Below, in pieces: positions 14,271 through 49,589 of a DNA stretch of 64,000 nt. This stretch comes from an uncultured Acidimicrobiales bacterium. GTDB lineage: Bacteria; Actinomycetota; Acidimicrobiia; Acidimicrobiales; Aldehydirespiratoraceae. Numbering within the stretch: the stretch's first letter is position 1; each line of letters begins with the position of its first letter. Made by a program: the position numbers and the translations under genes. Below the pieces are notes generated by a model. It was not told the DNA's origin, searched no databases, and saw only the letters and a list, made by a program, of their open reading frames with translations. The stretch spans positions 1,334,001 to 1,398,000 of the forward strand of contig CATOTC010000001.1 of assembly GCA_951812975.1 (NCBI GenBank), in the 5' to 3' direction.

Positions 14271-15263
14271 GTGGCCGTCACTCCGCTCTCTCTGGTTCCC
14301 TCGATGCAGGACGATCTTCTCCGTGTCGAGGCCGAGCTTCTGCGGGTTGTCTCGGCAACCGACGACTTCCTCACCGAGGTCGCCAGCCACCTGATCAACG
14401 CGGGTGGGAAACGGGTCAGGCCCGGATTCTGCATCGCCGCCGCGGCCGTCCACGACTTTGACGGCGAGGCGGCTTCGATCGACGTGGTCCGCGGTGGTTG
14501 CGCGGTAGAGCTGGTGCATATCGGCTCGCTCTACCACGACGATGTCATGGACGGAGCCGCGACCCGCCGGGGCGTCAAGAGCATCAACGCCGAGTGGGGG
14601 AACCTTCGTGCGATTCTGGCCGGCGACTATCTGCTCGGGCGTGCCTCCGAGTTGGCGGCTGCGCTCGGCACCGAGGTGGCCGGGTTGCTGGCGACAACCA
14701 TCACCGAACTATGCACCGGCCAGATCCTCGAACTGGAGTCTGTGCACAACGCGGACCGCACCTTCGAGCAGTACCAACGGTCGATCTCCGGCAAGACGTC
14801 GTCATTGCTGGCGACTTCCTGCCGAATCGGTGGAATCGTGGCCGATATCCCCAGACCGACGATCGACGCTCTCAGCGAGTTCGGGCGCGCCTATGGGATG
14901 GCCTTCCAGATCGTGGACGACATCCTCGACATCATCGCCACAGACGAACAGCTCGGGAAACCCGCCGGAACCGACCTGCTCGAAGGGATCTACACGCTCC
15001 CTGTGATCTACTCGCTGGGCGACCCCGGAGTCGCCGCCGAACTCCGTTCGCTGCTGCGAAGCGGCATCACCGTCGAGGAGCGGGACCGGGCTCGTGAGCT
15101 GACACGCCTGGGCGGTGGGGTCGCGCTTGCTGTCGAGGTGGCCGAGACCTGGGCCAACAAAGCCGACGCCGCCCTTTCTGACCTTCCCGACACGACCGGC
15201 GCCGCAGCCCTGCGGGCGGCCGGGCACCACCTATTGGAACGCCTCAACGCCGTCCGCAGCTAG
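14271..15263 (+). CDS. long-chain polyprenyl diphosphate synthase
   Basis: 330-aa trans-isoprenyl synthase. The first Asp-rich motif reads LYHDDVMD and the second FQIVDDILD; GGKRVRPGF and GDYLLGRA are also family motifs. It condenses IPP with allylic diphosphates to a C30-C45 chain, probably for menaquinone. Product length cannot be fixed from sequence alone. GTG 14271 is the start, with only a weak SD. It ends in a perfect hairpin convergent with coaX. Confidence 0.9.
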   Translation: MAVTPLSLVPSMQDDLLRVEAELLRVVSATDDFLTEVASHLINAGGKRVRPGFCIAAAAVHDFDGEAASIDVVRGGCAVELVHIGSLYHDDVMDGAATRRGVKSINAEWGNLRAILAGDYLLGRASELAAALGTEVAGLLATTITELCTGQILELESVHNADRTFEQYQRSISGKTSSLLATSCRIGGIVADIPRPTIDALSEFGRAYGMAFQIVDDILDIIATDEQLGKPAGTDLLEGIYTLPVIYSLGDPGVAAELRSLLRSGITVEERDRARELTRLGGGVALAVEVAETWANKADAALSDLPDTTGAAALRAAGHHLLERLNAVRS

Positions 15264-37240: not shown

Positions 37241-37336
37241 GGAGGTGTCCGAGCGCCTGGTGGGCTCCCCCGCCTTCAAAGCGGGTGGGATGGGTGATCC
37301 CCGTCCGGCGGGTTCGATTCCCGTCCACCTCCGCCA
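37241..37336 (+). tRNA. selC: tRNA-Sec(UCA), selenocysteine tRNA
   Basis: A 96-nt tRNA including encoded CCA (37334-37336). The acceptor strand GGAGGTG pairs with CACCTCC. The anticodon stem-loop is CCCGC-CTTCAAA-GCGGG with anticodon TCA. The long variable arm (GGGAT...ATCCC) and T-arm GGGTTCGATTCCC fit bacterial tRNA-Sec. No tRNA with anticodon UCA other than Sec (or a suppressor) is expected. No selA, selB or selD lies in this window. The DNA just downstream is an accessory island. Confidence 0.95.
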
Positions 37337-38774: not shown

Positions 38775-40223
38775 TCAAGGCTGATCTTCGCGAACGAGGG
38801 TGGGCGATAGGGCTTCGGTTAGGGCTTGGATTTCGGTTAGGGCGGATTGGAGGTCTTCGGCGATCTCGGCGGCGAGGATGGCCGGGGGCGGGAGGTTGTC
38901 AGCGTCTTCGAGGCTCTCGTCTCGGAGCCAGAACAGGTCGAGGCTGACCTTGTCGCGGGTGATCAGTTCGTCGTAGGTGTAGCGCTTGAACCGTTCGGAC
39001 TCTGCACGTTGGTGACGAGCGTCGGCCCGGTAGCAGGCGACGAAATCGTTGAGGTCGGCCCTCGTGAGCGGGTTCTGCTTCAGGGTGAAGTGCTTGTTGG
39101 TGCGCAGGTCGTACACCCACAGCTCACGGGTCCAGGCGTCCTCGGCGCCCTCTCGGCGGCGGAAGAACAGCACGTTGGCCTTCACGCCCTGCGCATAGAA
39201 GATCCCTGTCGGCAGCCGCAGCAGCGTGTGGACCTCGCAGTCGTGCAACAAGCGGCGGCGGATCGTCTCGCCCGCACCCGCCTCGAACAGCACGTTGTCG
39301 GGCACCACCACGGCCGCGTCCCCGCCGATCTTCAGCAAGCTCACCACATGCTGGACGAAGTTGAGTTGCTTGTTCTTCGTCGTTGCCCAGAAGTCCTCCC
39401 GCTCGTAGCTGTCCGACGACGACCGGCCGAACGGCGGATTGGTCAAAACCATGTCGAACGGCCTGCCCGGAGAGTCCCGCAGAGCGTCGTCGACCACGAT
39501 CGGTGAGTCGGATTCGGGGCTCTCGATGCCGTGCAGCAGCATGTTCATGGCGCACAACCGGGCCGGCAGGTCGGCGATCTCCCAACCATTGAACGCACCC
39601 GAGCGCAGGTGAGCGACCTGGTCGGGTTCCAGATGCGGGAACCGCTCGACAATCGACCGGTATGCGCCCAGGAAGAACCCTCCGGTGCCGCAGGCAGGGT
39701 CACAGATGCGGTCGTCGGGCTCGGGCTGCATCACATCGACGATGGCGTTGATGAGCGCCCTGGGCGTGAAGTACTGGCCCGCTCCCCTGGCACCCTCCTG
39801 GGCGGTCTTCTCGATCAGGCCCTCGTAGGCGTCGCCTTTGAGGTCGGCGTCGTAGCTCATCCACTCGTGCTGGTCGATGAACTCCTTGATGAGCTGTTCC
39901 AGCTTGGCGGGCGTCTGGATTCGGTTGCGGGCCTTGTGGAAGACCACGCCGAGCATGTCCTCACCAGCGCCGAGCGCGGCCAGCACATCACTGTAGTGGG
40001 ATTCAAGTTCCGCACCCGACCGGTTGAGCAACGACTGCCAGCCGTGCTCGATGGGCACGATGCGGACGCCTCCGAGCATCTCCTGCTGCTCGTCGGCCAT
40101 CTTGAGGAACAGCAGATAGGTGAGCTGTTCCAGGTAGTCGCCGTAGGACAGGCCGTCGTCGCGCAGCACGTCGCAGAAGTCCCACAACTTCTGCACCATC
40201 GCCTTCGGATCCTGTGCGGTCAC
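38775..40223 (-). CDS. hsdM: type I restriction-modification DNA methyltransferase subunit
   Basis: 482-aa N6-adenine methyltransferase. The N-terminal HsdM_N region (KLWDFCDVLRDDGLSYGDYLEQL) precedes the N6_Mtase core. SAM motif I is CDPACGTGGFF and catalytic motif IV is VLTNPPFG. GTG 40223 was selected over ATG 40250 because HsdM proteins begin TAQDPxAMVxKLW. It should methylate the target with HsdS. It is separated from hsdS by about 4 kb of plus-strand genes. A decayed copy of its C-terminal coding sequence lies at 48953-49022. Confidence 0.92.
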   Translation of the reverse strand: MTAQDPKAMVQKLWDFCDVLRDDGLSYGDYLEQLTYLLFLKMADEQQEMLGGVRIVPIEHGWQSLLNRSGAELESHYSDVLAALGAGEDMLGVVFHKARNRIQTPAKLEQLIKEFIDQHEWMSYDADLKGDAYEGLIEKTAQEGARGAGQYFTPRALINAIVDVMQPEPDDRICDPACGTGGFFLGAYRSIVERFPHLEPDQVAHLRSGAFNGWEIADLPARLCAMNMLLHGIESPESDSPIVVDDALRDSPGRPFDMVLTNPPFGRSSSDSYEREDFWATTKNKQLNFVQHVVSLLKIGGDAAVVVPDNVLFEAGAGETIRRRLLHDCEVHTLLRLPTGIFYAQGVKANVLFFRRREGAEDAWTRELWVYDLRTNKHFTLKQNPLTRADLNDFVACYRADARHQRAESERFKRYTYDELITRDKVSLDLFWLRDESLEDADNLPPPAILAAEIAEDLQSALTEIQALTEALSPTLVREDQP

Positions 40224-40250
40224 CGGCGCGCCCTCACAATGACCGATCAA

Positions 40251-42633: not shown

Positions 42634-43494
42634 ATGATGGCCCGAGCAAGGGCAGAATTGCAACCGGTGACACCAGAGGACTTCTTCAAGGACGACTTCG
42701 TCTCAGACAGGCATTTGCTCAACCACGAGCTATTGGACCGTGTGCGCGCTGGTACATACAACGAGCGGTCTGATGTCGAGGTCGCCGTCGCGTTGCTGCG
42801 GTTGGCCCATGACGAGCTTGAGGCTTATGGCACGAACGGAGAGCAGCGCACCGATAAGCACGACATTCGGCTCATTTTGAGAACGAGTCTGCAACTGCTG
42901 AACCGCCTAGGCGTAGTCCTCGACCTGCCGTTCAGCGACTATGGCACGTTTCGGTCTCATTGGATGGCCAACGGTGCACACGGCAACTGGCAGGCTCGGC
43001 GCGACATACTGAATGAACTCTTTGAGCCGGTCCACCTTCAACTCGCGGACCTGGAGAACGACGAACTCGGATCGGAGCTGGCAAAGCCTGTCACAAGCCA
43101 TCCGGGCACAGGTTGGTCCCGTGTTGATATCGAGATCAACGAAGTGCGACGCCATTTCGGGTCCGCTCGGAGCCCGCAGGACTACCGCAATGTCGGTAAC
43201 GACTGTGTCGCGGTTCTGGAACGGCTCAGCGAGGTGGTGTTCGATCCTGAGTTCCACCTCAGGGAAGGCGAGCAGGAGCCACCGGTCGCTAATACGAAGG
43301 ATCGGCTCGGCAGGTTCGTGGACAACGCCGCTTCCGGACCAGCGAATGCGGAGATCAGAAAAGTCGCCCGGGCAACCATTGAGCTAGCCCAAGCCATCAA
43401 GCACCAAGGTGAGCCGACGCGGAGGAATGCAGGGATCGCCGCAGACTCGGTGATCCTGCTCGCGAATCTTCTCCGCCGACTTGCTGAGAAATAA
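42634..43494 (+). CDS. unknown island protein (286 aa)
   Basis: A soluble, mostly helical protein. The middle (about 150-210) reads GTGWSRVDIEINEVRRHFGSA and YRNVGNDCVAVLERLSEVVF. The C-terminal half resembles the abortive-infection C-terminal type of helical bundles (VARATIELAQAIKHQGEPTRR), but I cannot name a family. It follows the ImmA/DUF4411 pair at 142 bp on the same strand, with nothing recognised in between. A role in defence is inferred only from location. Confidence 0.7.
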   Translation: MMARARAELQPVTPEDFFKDDFVSDRHLLNHELLDRVRAGTYNERSDVEVAVALLRLAHDELEAYGTNGEQRTDKHDIRLILRTSLQLLNRLGVVLDLPFSDYGTFRSHWMANGAHGNWQARRDILNELFEPVHLQLADLENDELGSELAKPVTSHPGTGWSRVDIEINEVRRHFGSARSPQDYRNVGNDCVAVLERLSEVVFDPEFHLREGEQEPPVANTKDRLGRFVDNAASGPANAEIRKVARATIELAQAIKHQGEPTRRNAGIAADSVILLANLLRRLAEK

Positions 43495-43531: not shown

Positions 43532-44284
43532 CTAGGACTTGTCGTCGCCCAACGACGGAGCCAATCGGCCTGGCAACGCGTCAATCAATTTGCGGATCTC
43601 GCCCAGTTCCTTGTGTTGCGCCTTGGTTGCCTGAGTTATCTCATCGAACGGCGTCGCAGTGACCTCTGACATTGATCTACGCGCACCGGAACCGCCGAAA
43701 CGCATGTCGGATCTCCACCTACGAATGCCCCAAGTGCTCTCGTGGGAGACCTCAAATCTGGTCTGGTCCAGAACTTCGACAGTCTGTTCCGACGCATTTC
43801 CGAAGTTTCACACGTAGCGCTGGTCTGGAGTCATGTCACTAAGATTCTCAATCGGACCGAAAAGAAACTCTCGAGTGTTGCCCTCGTCAGGAGTGATGCC
43901 AGTCTCGTGCCACGCAATCGGCGGGGTGCACTTGACCTGCACCTCCTTCGCGACTCGGTTTCCGGTATTCGTCAGTTCAAGATAGAGGCCGCCACTGAAC
44001 AGCAACCGCAGATTCACTCGTGGACGGCTTCGTTAAGCCCAATACCAGAGCGCCCCTAGTGCAGCGACTCCTTAAACGATCGCCTCGCTCCATTCGGACC
44101 CGACACACCACACCAGCAAGATTGCGAGTGCAGCTCCGACTGCGACAACTAGCCACCACACAACTCGCTTCACTTGCGACCTCCGTTCCATTGATTTCTT
44201 CTCTTCAACATCGCCGCTGGTTGTCTGCCTGAAGAACCTACTCGGCGTTACGAATGCACTGGACCAAATCTGAGGCTGGCTCAT
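43532..44284 (-). pseudogene. membrane protein broken by three in-frame stops
   Basis: One minus-strand frame from ATG 44284 (ATGA overlap with hsdS) to TAG 43534-43532 would encode about 250 aa. It reads MSQPQIWSSAFVTPSRFFRQ, a TM helix VVWWLVVAVGAALAILLVW, then a beta-rich part (GLYLELTNTGNRVAKEVQVK) and a helical tail. It is cut by TAA 44074-44072, TAA 44035-44033 and TGA 43810-43808, yet no frameshift is seen. The first 70 codons alone could still give a small membrane protein. Family unknown. Confidence 0.6.
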
Positions 44285-45510
44285 TGCCCGGGGGCTCTTG
44301 GGGGACAAGCTGACGCGAAGGCTCGCGACAAGATTGAGCGTCGGAGCGCTGCCGCTGTCACTTGACACCGGTCCAAGGAACCGGCGCATGACGCGACCAC
44401 GTATCTCGTCTCGTCGGCGACTCGCACGATCTGACGCTGGATGTCGAGCGGTGGGACCGGAAGCTCGACAGCACCGATCATCGATTGGTTGACCTTGTAG
44501 ATGCCAGCGGTCGTCCGAGCCTGCGATTCAAGTTGGCCCCTTACCTTGCGACTGTGCCAGACCAAGCTCAGGTATCTCGGATTCAGTCGTGACTCGTCGA
44601 CGCGTGCTCGAATCATTGTGTCGGGAAACGCCACAGGGGGCGCATCCTCGGACACAAGGCCGCCGCGTCCAACGAGTCTCAGAGAACCGTTGCCCCGTGC
44701 GATAAGAAAGTCATCAGGGGCTATTGCGAAACGGTTGGGGTCCGTGTCACCAAAGTCACCTTGTTTCGTCTCGGCCGGATCGATGAAACCTTCCTTTATC
44801 GCAGTCAGTCGGAGTACCGGATCGCCACCGCTGGGGGCTGTCCGCACAGAGCGGCCATTCGTCAGGGGTTCCGTCAGGAGTTCGCTCAACGGTTGACTCC
44901 GAGCATCCGCGAGTCGGAGCTGATCATCGACGACACGTTGTAGAAGCCGTGTGGTTCGGATGACAGCCGAAGCCAGTCCCGCATCGACAGCATCGAGGCG
45001 GGAGAAGTGCTCTTCAACGGCGGCGACGATTCGTTCCTGCTCCTGCTCGGAAGTAATGCGGACGCTCATGGCTCGAACATCGCCGTCCCTCACCGCCGGA
45101 TAACTGGTTCCGGTTTGCTGTTCGCTAAGCCGTTCAACAAAGTCATCGCTGAGGAGTTGGTGAAGGATGAACCGTGAGTTCACTCCGCGGTTGGGGCGGA
45201 GCACGCAGAATCCCGTAGATGCAATGGCTCCATCAAGCGAGGGCGACACAATCGCTGTCTTGCGTTGATATGTCCTCACGGTCGACAGGACGACGTCCCC
45301 GGTGCGCACGCGCTGACGAGCACGGGACGGCGCGTCACACCCTCGCAGACGTTTAGTGACCTCGATGCGACCAGATCCCGGGTGAATACCCCCGATGTCG
45401 ATGTAATCGAAGAATGCGTCTGGGGCTTCTCGAGGATCCACCTTCTCCACAGGGGTGCAGCACTCACCCAGCGTTGCGAGATACCAACCGGGGGGTAAGT
45501 CAGATGTCAT
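44281..45510 (-). CDS. hsdS: type I restriction-modification specificity subunit
   Basis: 409-aa DNA-recognition subunit. Two target-recognition domains are each followed by a helical spacer (EQERIVAAVEEHFSRLDAVDAGL and PPLDIQRQIVRVADETRYVVAS). First TRD starts LPPGWYLATLGECC. ATG 45510 was chosen because it overlaps the hsdR stop as ATGA; the frame upstream is not conserved. It directs HsdM and HsdR to a bipartite site. Confidence 0.9.
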   Translation of the reverse strand: MTSDLPPGWYLATLGECCTPVEKVDPREAPDAFFDYIDIGGIHPGSGRIEVTKRLRGCDAPSRARQRVRTGDVVLSTVRTYQRKTAIVSPSLDGAIASTGFCVLRPNRGVNSRFILHQLLSDDFVERLSEQQTGTSYPAVRDGDVRAMSVRITSEQEQERIVAAVEEHFSRLDAVDAGLASAVIRTTRLLQRVVDDQLRLADARSQPLSELLTEPLTNGRSVRTAPSGGDPVLRLTAIKEGFIDPAETKQGDFGDTDPNRFAIAPDDFLIARGNGSLRLVGRGGLVSEDAPPVAFPDTMIRARVDESRLNPRYLSLVWHSRKVRGQLESQARTTAGIYKVNQSMIGAVELPVPPLDIQRQIVRVADETRYVVASCAGSLDRCQVTAAALRRSILSRAFASACPPRAPGQ

Positions 45511-48344
45511 GCGGCTAGAGCCTGAGTGAGTTCGTCTAATAGGGCGTCGAGATCGGCGCCGAAGAGGTTGCGGGCTTTGCCTAGGCCGCCTTGGGTGCTG
45601 AAGGGTGGTCCCATCAATTGTGCAGGCGTGATACCGAGGTTGGTGGCGATGCGGGCTTTGATCAGGTCCAAGTAGGCAACCTGCTCCTCTGAGAACGAGC
45701 GGCCGGCGTTCGATTGCTGCAGCAGCCATGTCTCGAAGCGGTCGTTTACTAGCTCGGGGAAGGCGACCAACTCGTCAGCTTCGCCAAGTGCGTACCTCAC
45801 GAGGCTCACCAAGTCGGTGCTGACTCGGTGAGCCGAACCTCGCACCTTCGAGGCGTCGAGTGTCTCGTAGGCCTGCCACAGTGCCTCCGGGGTCCAACGA
45901 TGCGGAGGACGTGAAATCGCGTTGGCTAACTCCTTGATGTCCTTGTAGCTGAGGCCCCCGCCGTACGGCTGGCTGTAGAGCACCTCCAGCGCGGTGATCT
46001 CGTCCCTGTTGTCCTCGATGAACTGCTGCCACGACTCGACCTGGGACCGGGCACGGTCCGCCGCCTCCCGAGAGAACTCGTCTGAGATCACCCGATCCTG
46101 CGACGCCGTGTCGATCACCTGCTCGTAGCTGCGCCTCACATCGATCAGCTTCTCCCGCAGCGCCGAATTGCCTGCCAGCGGTTGCAACGCCTCACGGATC
46201 ATCGTCTTGCCGGCAGCCTTGACCTGATCAGGTGTGGGATCACCGTCAGCTTCAGCCTTGGCCGCCGCGTACTGTCGGTCGATGTCGAGCGCGTCCACCA
46301 TGCCGCGCACCAACTCCGTCAGCCCGACTCCGGCCACCTCCTCCACCTCTGCTCGATCCCCTGGCGTCATCTTCCGGTGAAGCCGGGTGAGCCGAGACGC
46401 CACCGACGACACCACTTCTGGATCGACCGAGCCGATGCCGATCTGGTTCAACAGCCGGTCGAAGCTCACGCCACGCTTGCGTTCGAGCGGCACAGTGTCG
46501 TGCAGTTCAGCTTCGGTGACACCCACGGCATCCACGATCACGAATCGGTCCTTGACCACGGCATCGGGCGTGACTGCACGCAGTTGATCGTTGTCCATCA
46601 CCCGCACACCACGCCCCTTCATCTGCTCGAAGAAGTTGCGGCTGCGCACCATGCGCATGAACACCACACACTCGATCGGCTTCACATCGGTGCCGGTGGC
46701 GATCATGTCCACCGTCACCGCGATTCGGGTCTGGTAGCTGGTGCGGAACTGCTGCAACAACTCCTCAGGCTTGTTGCCGGCGTCTCCCGAGCGGTAGGTG
46801 ATCTTCACCGCCCCCTCGTTGCCGAGCCCGAACTCCTCCCGGACAATCTGCACGATGTCGTCCGCGTGACTGTCGTCCTTGGCGAAGATCAACGTCTTTG
46901 GCACATGGGCCAGCAGACCGTCGTCACGACGCTCCCGGTCGTCGAAGATCACCGGAAGGGAGTCGCGCAGGGTGCGAACCACGGTGCGGATCTGGTCGGG
47001 GGCCACCACCTTGCGGTCCAGTTCGGCGGCGCTGTAGTCGATGTCCTCATCGACTTTCTCCAGACGGAGCTGACGGGTCTCGCGGTCGCGGAACTCGGTT
47101 ACGAACTCCGCGGGGACCGTGCCGCCGGACTCAGTGATCTCGGTGCGGATGCGGAAGATATCGAAGTCCACGTTCACCCGGTCGGCCACCGCCTGGGCAT
47201 GGCCGTACTCCATCACGATGTTCCGGTCGAAGAAGGCGAACGTCTGGATACCCGGCGTGGCCGTGAGCCCCACCAAGAAAGCGTCGAAGTACTCGAGAAC
47301 CTGGCGCCACACGCCATAGATCGAACGGTGGCACTCATCGATGATGATCAGGTCGTAGGACTCGATCGGCACCGACGGGTTGTAGGCCACATTCACCGGC
47401 ACGGCCGGAGCGGTCTCGAAGCCGCTCTGCTCATCGACCGCTTCGTCGAGTTCGTCATCACCCTTCAGGATCGAATGAAGCCTCTGAATCGTGCAGATGT
47501 GGACCTTCGTTGCCGCCTCGTCCGCCATGTCAAGCCGCGAAGACGTGAGATGGCGGACGTTGTAGAGCTCAGTGAACTTGCGCCTGTCATCGGGGGTGGC
47601 GAACCCCTGGAACTCCCGAAGCGCCTGACGACCAAGATTCGCCCGGTCAACCAGGAAGAGAATCCGCTGGGCTCCCGCGTGTTCCAACAGGCGATAACAG
47701 ACATTGGCGGCAGCGAACGTCTTGCCAGAACCGGTGGCCATCTGGATCAGGGCCCGGGGACGGTTCTCCCGGAACGACCGCTCAAGATTCCCGATGGCTT
47801 CGGCTTGTGCAGGCCACAGGTGCGCTGTGCCTGCACCCGCATCGAGAGCGGGCAGGAGCGGGACACCGGCACGCAGACCAGCGCCACGGCCGTTGACATA
47901 GTCCTCCTGCCAGCGGGCCAGTGTCTCGGGTTGATGGAAGGTGTAGACCCGTCGACTCGCCGGCACAGGGTCCAACCCACTCGTAAACCGAGTCTCAGCA
48001 CCGGTCGACTCGTAGCCGAACGGCAGCGCACCACCAACCTCAAAGGCCGGCAGTTCATCGGGGTAAGCGGTGCGATACTTGCGGGTCTGGAACTCAACCC
48101 CGGTCAATGTGCTCCCAGCCTTCTTGGCCTCGATCACCCCCACCGCCTGGCTGTCCACGAACAGCACATAGTCGGCCGGACCCGACTCGGTAGGAACTTC
48201 ACGAACGGCAACACCCTGAGCCGCGGCCACCGCAGCGCTCCGGTAGTCCTGCACAACCCACCCACAAGCCGCGAGTTGCTCATCAATCTTCTCCCGAGCC
48301 TGACCCTCAGGCGTGGAATAGTCAGATGAACCAGTCTCAGACAC
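45507..48344 (-). CDS. hsdR: type I restriction endonuclease motor subunit
   Basis: 945-aa HsdR. The N-terminal nuclease region has ADYVLFVDSQAVGVIEAKKAG (the ExK part of a PD-ExK core). Walker A is QMATGSGKTFAAANVC and the DEAD-like box IIDECHRSIYG; helicase motif VI-like MKGRGVRVMD follows. The C-terminal part is helical (EcoEI_R_C type). GTG 48344 gives an N-terminus MSETGSSDYSTPEGQAREKI; the upstream frame is low quality. Intact, so restriction may be active. Confidence 0.92.
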   Translation of the reverse strand: MSETGSSDYSTPEGQAREKIDEQLAACGWVVQDYRSAAVAAAQGVAVREVPTESGPADYVLFVDSQAVGVIEAKKAGSTLTGVEFQTRKYRTAYPDELPAFEVGGALPFGYESTGAETRFTSGLDPVPASRRVYTFHQPETLARWQEDYVNGRGAGLRAGVPLLPALDAGAGTAHLWPAQAEAIGNLERSFRENRPRALIQMATGSGKTFAAANVCYRLLEHAGAQRILFLVDRANLGRQALREFQGFATPDDRRKFTELYNVRHLTSSRLDMADEAATKVHICTIQRLHSILKGDDELDEAVDEQSGFETAPAVPVNVAYNPSVPIESYDLIIIDECHRSIYGVWRQVLEYFDAFLVGLTATPGIQTFAFFDRNIVMEYGHAQAVADRVNVDFDIFRIRTEITESGGTVPAEFVTEFRDRETRQLRLEKVDEDIDYSAAELDRKVVAPDQIRTVVRTLRDSLPVIFDDRERRDDGLLAHVPKTLIFAKDDSHADDIVQIVREEFGLGNEGAVKITYRSGDAGNKPEELLQQFRTSYQTRIAVTVDMIATGTDVKPIECVVFMRMVRSRNFFEQMKGRGVRVMDNDQLRAVTPDAVVKDRFVIVDAVGVTEAELHDTVPLERKRGVSFDRLLNQIGIGSVDPEVVSSVASRLTRLHRKMTPGDRAEVEEVAGVGLTELVRGMVDALDIDRQYAAAKAEADGDPTPDQVKAAGKTMIREALQPLAGNSALREKLIDVRRSYEQVIDTASQDRVISDEFSREAADRARSQVESWQQFIEDNRDEITALEVLYSQPYGGGLSYKDIKELANAISRPPHRWTPEALWQAYETLDASKVRGSAHRVSTDLVSLVRYALGEADELVAFPELVNDRFETWLLQQSNAGRSFSEEQVAYLDLIKARIATNLGITPAQLMGPPFSTQGGLGKARNLFGADLDALLDELTQALAA

Positions 48345-48472
48345 CCCGGTGATCCTACGTGCCCAAGTAACTCCCGGCCATCTCTCCGGTCTCGGCTGGG
48401 TGTGACAGGGCCCCTGGTCCACGTGGCAGCGCTACCTGGATGATGTCGCGATGCTGATATGTTCTGCTGACC

Positions 48473-48733
48473 ATGACGAAGACCACAATCTCACTGGATC
48501 AGCGACTCGCCGAGCGAGTGCGACGCGAAGCAGACACGCGTGGGATGAGCATGAGCGCCTTCGTTGCTTCGACGCTCGATGATGCTCTCAAACGCAGCAA
48601 ACCATTCGAGCAGCCTCCCTTCCGGCTGATCACAGTGCGCTGCTCTCGAGGAAGTGCACAAGTTGATCTCGACCGGCCGAGGACGCTCGACGCGCAAGAA
48701 GACCAAGCCAAGTTCAATCACGCGGGTCGGTAG
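48473..48733 (+). CDS. orphan RHH antitoxin (VapB-like)
   Basis: 86-aa protein beginning MTKTTISLDQRLAERVRREA, with RGMSMSAFVASTLDDALKR as the second RHH helix and a C-terminal VDLDRPRTLDAQED motif as in many VapB antitoxins. No toxin gene follows; the next element is another, broken antitoxin. It may be a leftover from a lost TA pair or an anti-addiction antitoxin. Confidence 0.7.
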   Translation: MTKTTISLDQRLAERVRREADTRGMSMSAFVASTLDDALKRSKPFEQPPFRLITVRCSRGSAQVDLDRPRTLDAQEDQAKFNHAGR

Positions 48734-48753
48734 CCCTGATCTGACGTGGCGTC

Positions 48754-48952
48754 ATGCGTATACACATCGATCTTGAGACCGAACAGCGACCACTCGCCAA
48801 ACGCAAGGCCGTCGATCTGGCATCAGCATGGCCGAGTACATCCACCGCTTCGGAGAGCAAGACCTCGCTCAGGCGGGTCCTTAAACTCCGACATCTCCGC
48901 CATCTTCGGTATCGGGGACGCCGGCGGTAGCGAATCCACGCATGAGGGAGCC
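48754..48952 (+). pseudogene. frameshifted antitoxin fragment
   Basis: Three successive frames spell one VapB-like antitoxin: MRIHIDLETEQRPLAKRKAV, then GISMAEYIHRFGEQDLAQAG, then NSDISAIFGIGDAGGSE. Two frameshifts (near 48820 and 48884) are needed to join them. The fragment ends where an hsdM remnant begins. No toxin follows. Confidence 0.65.
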
Positions 48953-49022
48953 CGTCTCGCAACCAGAACAGATCGAAGCTAACGTTGTCGCTGGCGACCA
49001 GCTCGACGTAGGCCTAGCGCTG
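48953..49022 (-). pseudogene. remnant of an hsdM C-terminal region
   Basis: The minus strand reads YVELVASDNVSFDLFWLRDG, matching YDELITRDKVSLDLFWLRDE of the intact HsdM, and the DNA aligns with plus-strand 38920-38990. A stop codon precedes it. It is a scar of a second or earlier hsdM copy next to the upstream side of hsdR. Confidence 0.7.
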
Positions 49023-49035
49023 CCACGGCACCCAG

Positions 49036-49064
49036 TTGATGTTCTGTATAGAATTCTGTACAAT
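49036..49064 (+). promoter_or_regulatory. promoter and probable operator of the Phd/ParE-type TA
   Basis: TTGATG (49036-49041) and TACAAT (49059-49064) are separated by 17 bp. The spacer holds TTCTGTATAGAA and TTCTGTAC, a palindromic plus directly repeated element, as expected for TA autoregulation. An SD (AGGAG) lies 6 nt before ATG 49103. Confidence 0.6.
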
Positions 49065-49102
49065 ACTGCCCCGACCACACCCACGGACCGCAGGAGAGCC
49101 AC

Positions 49103-49339
49103 ATGACGCCACTAACCGAAGCCCGTAGTCGCCTTAGCGAAATTGTCGACGAAGTGGCCTCGACCGGCTCGACGATCGAGATCTCCCGCCACGGACGACC
49201 CCTGGCGGTCGTCGTGGGCTACGAGGAGTACGAATCGCTGCTCGAAACGCTGAACATCCTCGCCGATGAGACAACCATGGACGCTATTGCCGAGGCCGAG
49301 CGTGATATTGCCTCTGGCGACCTGACTGATCTCGACTGA
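49103..49339 (+). CDS. Phd/YefM-family antitoxin
   Basis: 78-aa antitoxin. LTEARSRLSEIVDEVASTGS and ISRHGRPLAVVVGYEEYESL are the Phd/YefM DNA-binding fold signatures. The acidic C-terminal tail (AEAERDIASGDLTDLD) should bind the toxin. Pairs with the RelE/ParE toxin 7 bp downstream. Confidence 0.9.
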   Translation: MTPLTEARSRLSEIVDEVASTGSTIEISRHGRPLAVVVGYEEYESLLETLNILADETTMDAIAEAERDIASGDLTDLD

Positions 49340-49346
49340 GGGCGCT

Positions 49347-49589
49347 GTGGCCCAACTGGCGCGCCGCGCCAAGAAGGACCTTGAGAACTTGCCGACCCCG
49401 CTGGCGGACAAAGCCAGGACGATCATCAGGCGCCTCGACAACGAACCCCACTTGGGCAAGAAGCTCGTTGGCCCGCTGCAGGGCAAGCGCTCAGCTCACC
49501 TCGGACGGTCCCACCGCATCATCTACACAGCAAGCGACGGACACATCGTCGTTCTAACGATCTCGCACAGAAGGGACGCCTACCGTTGA
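49347..49589 (+). CDS. RelE/ParE-family toxin
   Basis: 80-aa toxin starting at GTG 49347. RRAKKDLENLP, GKKLVGPLQGKRSAHLGRSH, RIIYTASDGHIVVLTISHR and DAYR are RelE-fold hallmarks, with the C-terminal His/Arg catalytic set HRRDAYR present. It probably cleaves mRNA in the ribosome. Looks intact. Confidence 0.9.
   Translation: MAQLARRAKKDLENLPTPLADKARTIIRRLDNEPHLGKKLVGPLQGKRSAHLGRSHRIIYTASDGHIVVLTISHRRDAYR

Follow-up and report, generated by a model that had tools for sequence, protein, structure and literature searches.

The window, i.e. the whole stretch of 64,000 nucleotides that was analysed, contains the Type I restriction-modification (RM) genes hsdR, hsdS and hsdM on the minus strand. About 530 bp separate the hsdR start from an upstream, hsdM-like scrap of 69 nt on the strand common to these three genes. 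The scrap is wedged between a truncated vapB-like antitoxin pseudogene on the left and an intact phd-parE pair on the right. The relevant features are:

37241..37336, plus strand, tRNA-Sec (ARAGORN, Rfam); its 3' end is the limit of congener homology
38775..40250, minus strand, resident hsdM, open frame (Pfam N6_Mtase, HsdM_N)
44281..45504, minus strand, hsdS, open frame (Pfam Methylase_S)
45507..48422, minus strand, hsdR, open frame (Pfam ResIII, EcoEI_R_C; relatives)
48473..48733, plus strand, ribbon-helix-helix antitoxin-like ORF (Pfam RHH_1, E 4.4e-4, exactly at the 20.5-bit cut-off)
48736..48939, plus strand, vapB-like antitoxin pseudogene; the frame breaks and the next toxin frame is absent
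48953..49021, minus strand, hsdM relic (translation, local score, blastn/tblastn, match ends)
49103..49339, plus strand, phd/yefM antitoxin (Pfam PhdYeFM_antitox, E 6.8e-19)
49347..49589, plus strand, parE/relE-type toxin (Pfam ParE_toxin, E 1.6e-9)

The scrap runs from 49021 to 48953 and corresponds to about codons 422–444 of HsdM. Minus-strand translation of 48953–49022 gives QR*AYVELVASDNVSFDLFWLRD, with an in-frame stop in front of the HsdM residues and the C-terminal HsdM segment (Y)xEL...D..S.DLFWLRD present in frame. The sequence-only reading had described a 70-bp HsdM remnant with a stop in front. Both the identity and the stop are confirmed, but strand (minus), aligned length (69 nt, 48953–49021) and residues had to be corrected: the quoted YDELIxRDxVSxDLFWLRD is partly the wording of the resident hsdM, and the actual residues of the scrap are AYVELVASDNVSFDLFWLRD. 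Compared with the resident gene, 56 of 69 nt are identical without gaps. The local alignment score of this pair is 43 and the best of 500 shuffles reached 20, while a tile scan of the window (410 tile-strands, hsdM excluded) yielded 43 and 30 for the tiles of the scrap and 22 for the next one, which rules out a chance match. Identity to HsdM is thus far above chance, and the outcome named beforehand as contrary to the assignment, an identity no better than random, was not observed. Among the fetched loci, blastn of the scrap against the resident hsdM gave an E value of 2.7e-13. A tblastn search of the window with HsdM found the scrap (E 5.6e-4) and no further convincing hsdM piece (next hit E 0.67). 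When the own genome was searched with HsdM, six matches were obtained, of which the scrap is the weakest and contains one stop. Against HsdM in 93 locus rows, with some loci represented twice, 7–16 of the last 23 positions are identical. On the plus strand of 48953–49022, no HsdM-like residues appeared in the one frame tried. A plus-strand gene was also considered and rejected, since a six-frame reading of 48430–49130 by eye revealed no coding-looking plus frame across the scrap. A query of 48940–49040 against a plasmid collection returned six records at chance level (E 0.2–0.8).

Among 72 matches over the scrap in the fetched loci (some loci counted twice), 59 begin at 48953, 47 finish at 49021 and 41 do both. 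Longer matches to distant HsdM (loci L149 and L159, reaching 49029; L145, 103 nt at 72%) were inspected by eye and set aside. Sequence flanking this segment in hsdM is absent on either side. An HsdM protein is defined by an open reading frame and an N6-adenine methyltransferase domain with cofactor and catalytic motifs; the scrap lacks this domain and has a stop inside the segment. In comparison with HsdM of Type I RM systems (Pfam HsdM_N / N6_Mtase), it shares the C-terminal segment AYVEL...SFDLFWLRD, but with only 69 nt, a stop, no catalytic domain and no flanks it is a relic. Homology to an RM gene, a broken frame and lost flanks, the features of an RM pseudogene or relic, are all found. 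Because of the in-frame stop and the missing flanks, the scrap is dead.

Its position does not fit the operon next to it. On the same strand, hsdR precedes hsdM in 61 of 61 locus rows carrying both genes (loci L045 and up, matches of over 150 residues to HsdR as well as to HsdM, first-listed match of each; five row pairs are the same contig, judged by its length, so that 56 remain). Hence, an hsdM tail in front of hsdR is no native part of this operon. The scrap has the direction of hsdR-hsdS-hsdM, as expected for the remainder of a second operon placed in tandem ahead of this one. A tblastn search of the window for remnants of a second hsdR or hsdS, with the own HsdR and HsdS, HsdR of G035, G009 and G018, HsdS of G035 and G003, and HsdM of G018 as queries, found nothing convincing; the best stray hit had an E value of 0.010 near 23.8 kb.

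The antitoxin block to the left (48736–48933) is 70–88% identical to blocks in relatives, and by eye their similarity to the vapB-like pseudogene stops near 48939. In eight of eight aligned relatives the antitoxin frame continues and a second, PIN-like frame starts (PIN by eye). The window departs near 48939 and has neither this continuation nor the PIN-like frame. The label 'vapB-like' rests on the neighbouring PIN-like frame and on inspection by eye, and a Pfam scan of the joined reading of the pseudogene matched no family. The preceding ribbon-helix-helix ORF has a 70% DNA match in G001, and no toxin partner was seen for it. To the right, the phd block including its upstream region begins near 49031 and is present in G065, G072, G003, G001 and G084. 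Between the scrap and the adjoining modules lie 13 nt and 9 nt of unplaced sequence. The phd-parE pair is found directly behind hsdM in G065 and G072 (L084, 6839–8898; L085, 3167–1172) and elsewhere away from hsdM. It is possibly a small mobile pair.

On a larger scale, backbone homology to the congeners G001, G003, G004 and G005 stops at 37336/37337, i.e. at the 3' end of tRNA-Sec (the G001 contig ends 124–125 nt past this stop). It returns at the antitoxin block (48736) in G003 and at an oxidoreductase gene (54993) in G001 and G003. The content between tRNA-Sec and the conserved oxidoreductase gene differs among congeners; in G003 this distance is about 1.9 kb, with toxin-antitoxin-like frames inside (by eye). 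DUF4062, ImmA/IrrE-like and DUF4411 genes (Pfam) accompany the hsd genes in the window, and the gap in congener homology identifies all of these as cargo between tRNA-Sec and the old antitoxin gene. An ORF of 286 aa in the same interval (42634–43494) has no Pfam match. The upstream region of the window's 36105–36758 gene was noticed as a copy in G001 (L100, 1895–2419); this copy adjoins the ribbon-helix-helix ORF about 4 kb before the oxidoreductase gene.

Genomic islands anchored at tRNA genes and defence islands are a known class and were used for comparison. Like these, the window carries variable DNA that starts at a tRNA 3' end, with RM and toxin-antitoxin cargo. It differs from tRNA-anchored islands in that a flanking repeat of the tRNA end, as expected for an attachment site, was not detected: the last 24 nt of tRNA-Sec have no second copy in the window at up to 7 mismatches. 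No integrase is among the 18 proteins scanned with Pfam. The boundaries given here come from the congener comparison. A rearrangement of the locus, as claimed from the sequence alone, is borne out by the hsdR-before-hsdM order in 61 of 61 rows, the differing congener content and the truncation of the vapB-like gene beside the scrap.

The source of the scrap was addressed with related alleles. The nearest are three distinct ones (that of G005, L108 and L110) with 59 of 69 identical nt. The exact source within the family, which the earlier reading had hoped to determine by aligning hsdM of relatives, lies beyond the resolution of 69 nt. From the majority base of 34 alleles, i.e. the distinct family alleles without a stop across this stretch (the G005 gene is broken elsewhere), the scrap departs at 12 positions, of which 8 occur in some allele and 4 are private. 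Hence, judged from these bases, it looks like an inherited distinct allele that later acquired a few changes. A tree was built from the scrap and 43 hsdM rows, and its bootstrap replicates were rooted on a single distant row. In 825 of 1000 replicates the sister of the scrap lay within L104/L107–L110/L135/L141/L143; in 139 it was L106, and in 34 it took in this eight-row group without the resident gene. On these 69 nt, the sister excluded the resident hsdM in 998 of 1000 trees; the resident gene was inside it in 2 and its sole member in 1. Branch support directly beside the scrap is 32 and 34 (values after re-rooting). The G005 allele (L051/L128/L184), nearest by identity, was left out of the tree since its match is split. 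The nearest named hsdM loci belong to metagenome-assembled genomes (MAGs) labelled Acidimicrobiia, Acidimicrobiaceae or similar. At least three MAGs (jk18x9bins.27, jk18x40bins.18 and jk18x11bins.54) each have two related hsdM loci, some of them partial, and bins can mix strains. As far as 69 nt allow, these comparisons favour a source different from the resident hsdM.

The scrap differs from ten alleles at 9–13 nucleotides, and 6–8 codons are changed in these comparisons. For 258 pairs of open alleles at 9–13 differences the mean is 3.4 changed codons and the maximum 7. In a wider set (74 69-mers), 50 of 596 pairs, which are non-independent, have at least 7 changed codons. This may indicate a modest signal of relaxed constraint in the scrap. 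None of the 26 columns that are invariant in the 34 alleles is changed (P ~0.006 for ten changes at random), which argues against long neutral decay. The scrap has probably not passed through a long period of decay.

Pieces of hsdM are also found in relatives. G035 contains an hsdM fragment behind several ORFs downstream of its hsdM (L045, about 14534–14671), G072 an hsdM tail fragment behind phd-parE downstream of its own hsdM (L085, 424–357), and G004 a fragment in which codons 112–139 and 432–482 are fused (L054, within 6592–6349). Other pieces lie in L063, L061 and L120. A search of 51 genomes with the hsdM 3' end scored at most 14 candidates for each; it misses short pieces, including the scrap of the window, and thus gives no frequency. 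Inspection by eye revealed further details of these loci. Of the several ORFs between hsdM and the displaced tail in G035 (L045, 11355–14575), some resemble a ubiquitin-like conjugation cassette, and the fused fragment of G004 stands among small ORFs like MazF-type and PIN-type toxins (L054, 5715–7817). The hsdM of G005 (L051, 10369–11910) is split over several frames, and a small portion of its 3' part is repeated within it.

According to the passages of PMC3874152 on RM mobility, extensive rearrangements often accompany the movement of RM systems (citing Furuta et al. 2010), some systems duplicate roughly 100 bp of the target when they insert, single RM component genes can appear mobile, and type I systems are less mobile than type II. 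In contrast to the insertions with duplications described there, no target duplication is demonstrable at the scrap.

Most likely, the scrap is ordinary genomic debris. It is probably what is left, within a rearranged defence island, of a second hsdM that belonged to the same Type I RM family as the resident gene. We infer that a longer hsdM once lay at this site and that it had not been copied from the resident gene; the sequence of events given here is likewise inferred. An earlier hsdM-bearing insertion would have stood distal to the vapB-like antitoxin gene, its near junction cutting this gene and removing the toxin frame behind. The phd-parE pair would have replaced the far side of the insertion, leaving 69 nt of hsdM as a seam at the island's distal edge. 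Turnover of the island presumably spans the interval from the 3' end of tRNA-Sec (37336) to the oxidoreductase gene (54993). Insertions at the tRNA end may displace older pieces to the outside, which is where the scrap lies. It is presumably non-coding, and we propose no function for it. The earlier claim that another hsdM once lay here stands insofar as a non-resident source is favoured within 69 nt; a whole second hsdM is unproven. The same holds for a replacement by a related RM system, which is plausible, but the queries used revealed no second hsdR or hsdS remnant, and a captured fragment would look alike.

Partial duplication of the resident gene, with the copy placed upstream of hsdR in a rearrangement and decayed since, would account for a same-strand piece in the same genome with 56 of 69 identical nt. 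We regard it as unlikely: alleles of relatives are nearer (59 of 69), 8 of the 12 minority bases also exist as variants among other alleles, and the resident gene hardly ever enters the sister group of the scrap in the bootstrap trees, a result limited by the length of the alignment. The scrap could also have arrived with phd-parE, since in G065 and G072 phd starts about 50–75 nt behind the hsdM end on the same strand, and G072 even retains a piece of the hsdM tail beyond the pair. The scrap of the window, however, runs away from phd, opposite to the arrangement in both relatives, and an extra local inversion would be needed; moreover, G001, G003 and G084 have the pair without an hsdM match beside it (the G003 contig starts 188 nt before the block). 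Such a joint passage is improbable.

The very short length, the mostly abrupt ends and the 13 nt and 9 nt of unplaced sequence are consistent with filler DNA, i.e. a short stretch of hsdM picked up by a broken end during junction repair, without any whole second hsdM. Even then the piece must stem from an hsdM allele other than the resident one, and we consider this origin quite improbable. Very improbable is a retained functional element, such as a small peptide, an antisense site or a regulatory site of phd: the unchanged 26 invariant columns and the proximity to the phd upstream region would agree with it, but the frame carries a stop, the conserved phd upstream block starts near 49031 and thus outside the scrap, and no scrap-like match was found beside phd-parE of G001, G003 and G084.

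The tails seen in relatives would allow a more general proposal, in which members of this bacterial family repeatedly exchange defence and toxin-antitoxin cassettes at a seam in hsdM, mainly in the 3' part of the gene; as it stands, this is unlikely. The tails would then be footprints of such swaps, behind cargo in G035 and G072, by other small modules in G004 and, in the window, in inverted orientation beside phd-parE, an assignment that is likewise rather unlikely.

By itself, the scrap documents turnover only. It helps, however, to order the layers of the defence island that starts at tRNA-Sec. Taken with the hsdM fragments of relatives, it gives a hint that cassettes may preferentially be exchanged at hsdM ends.
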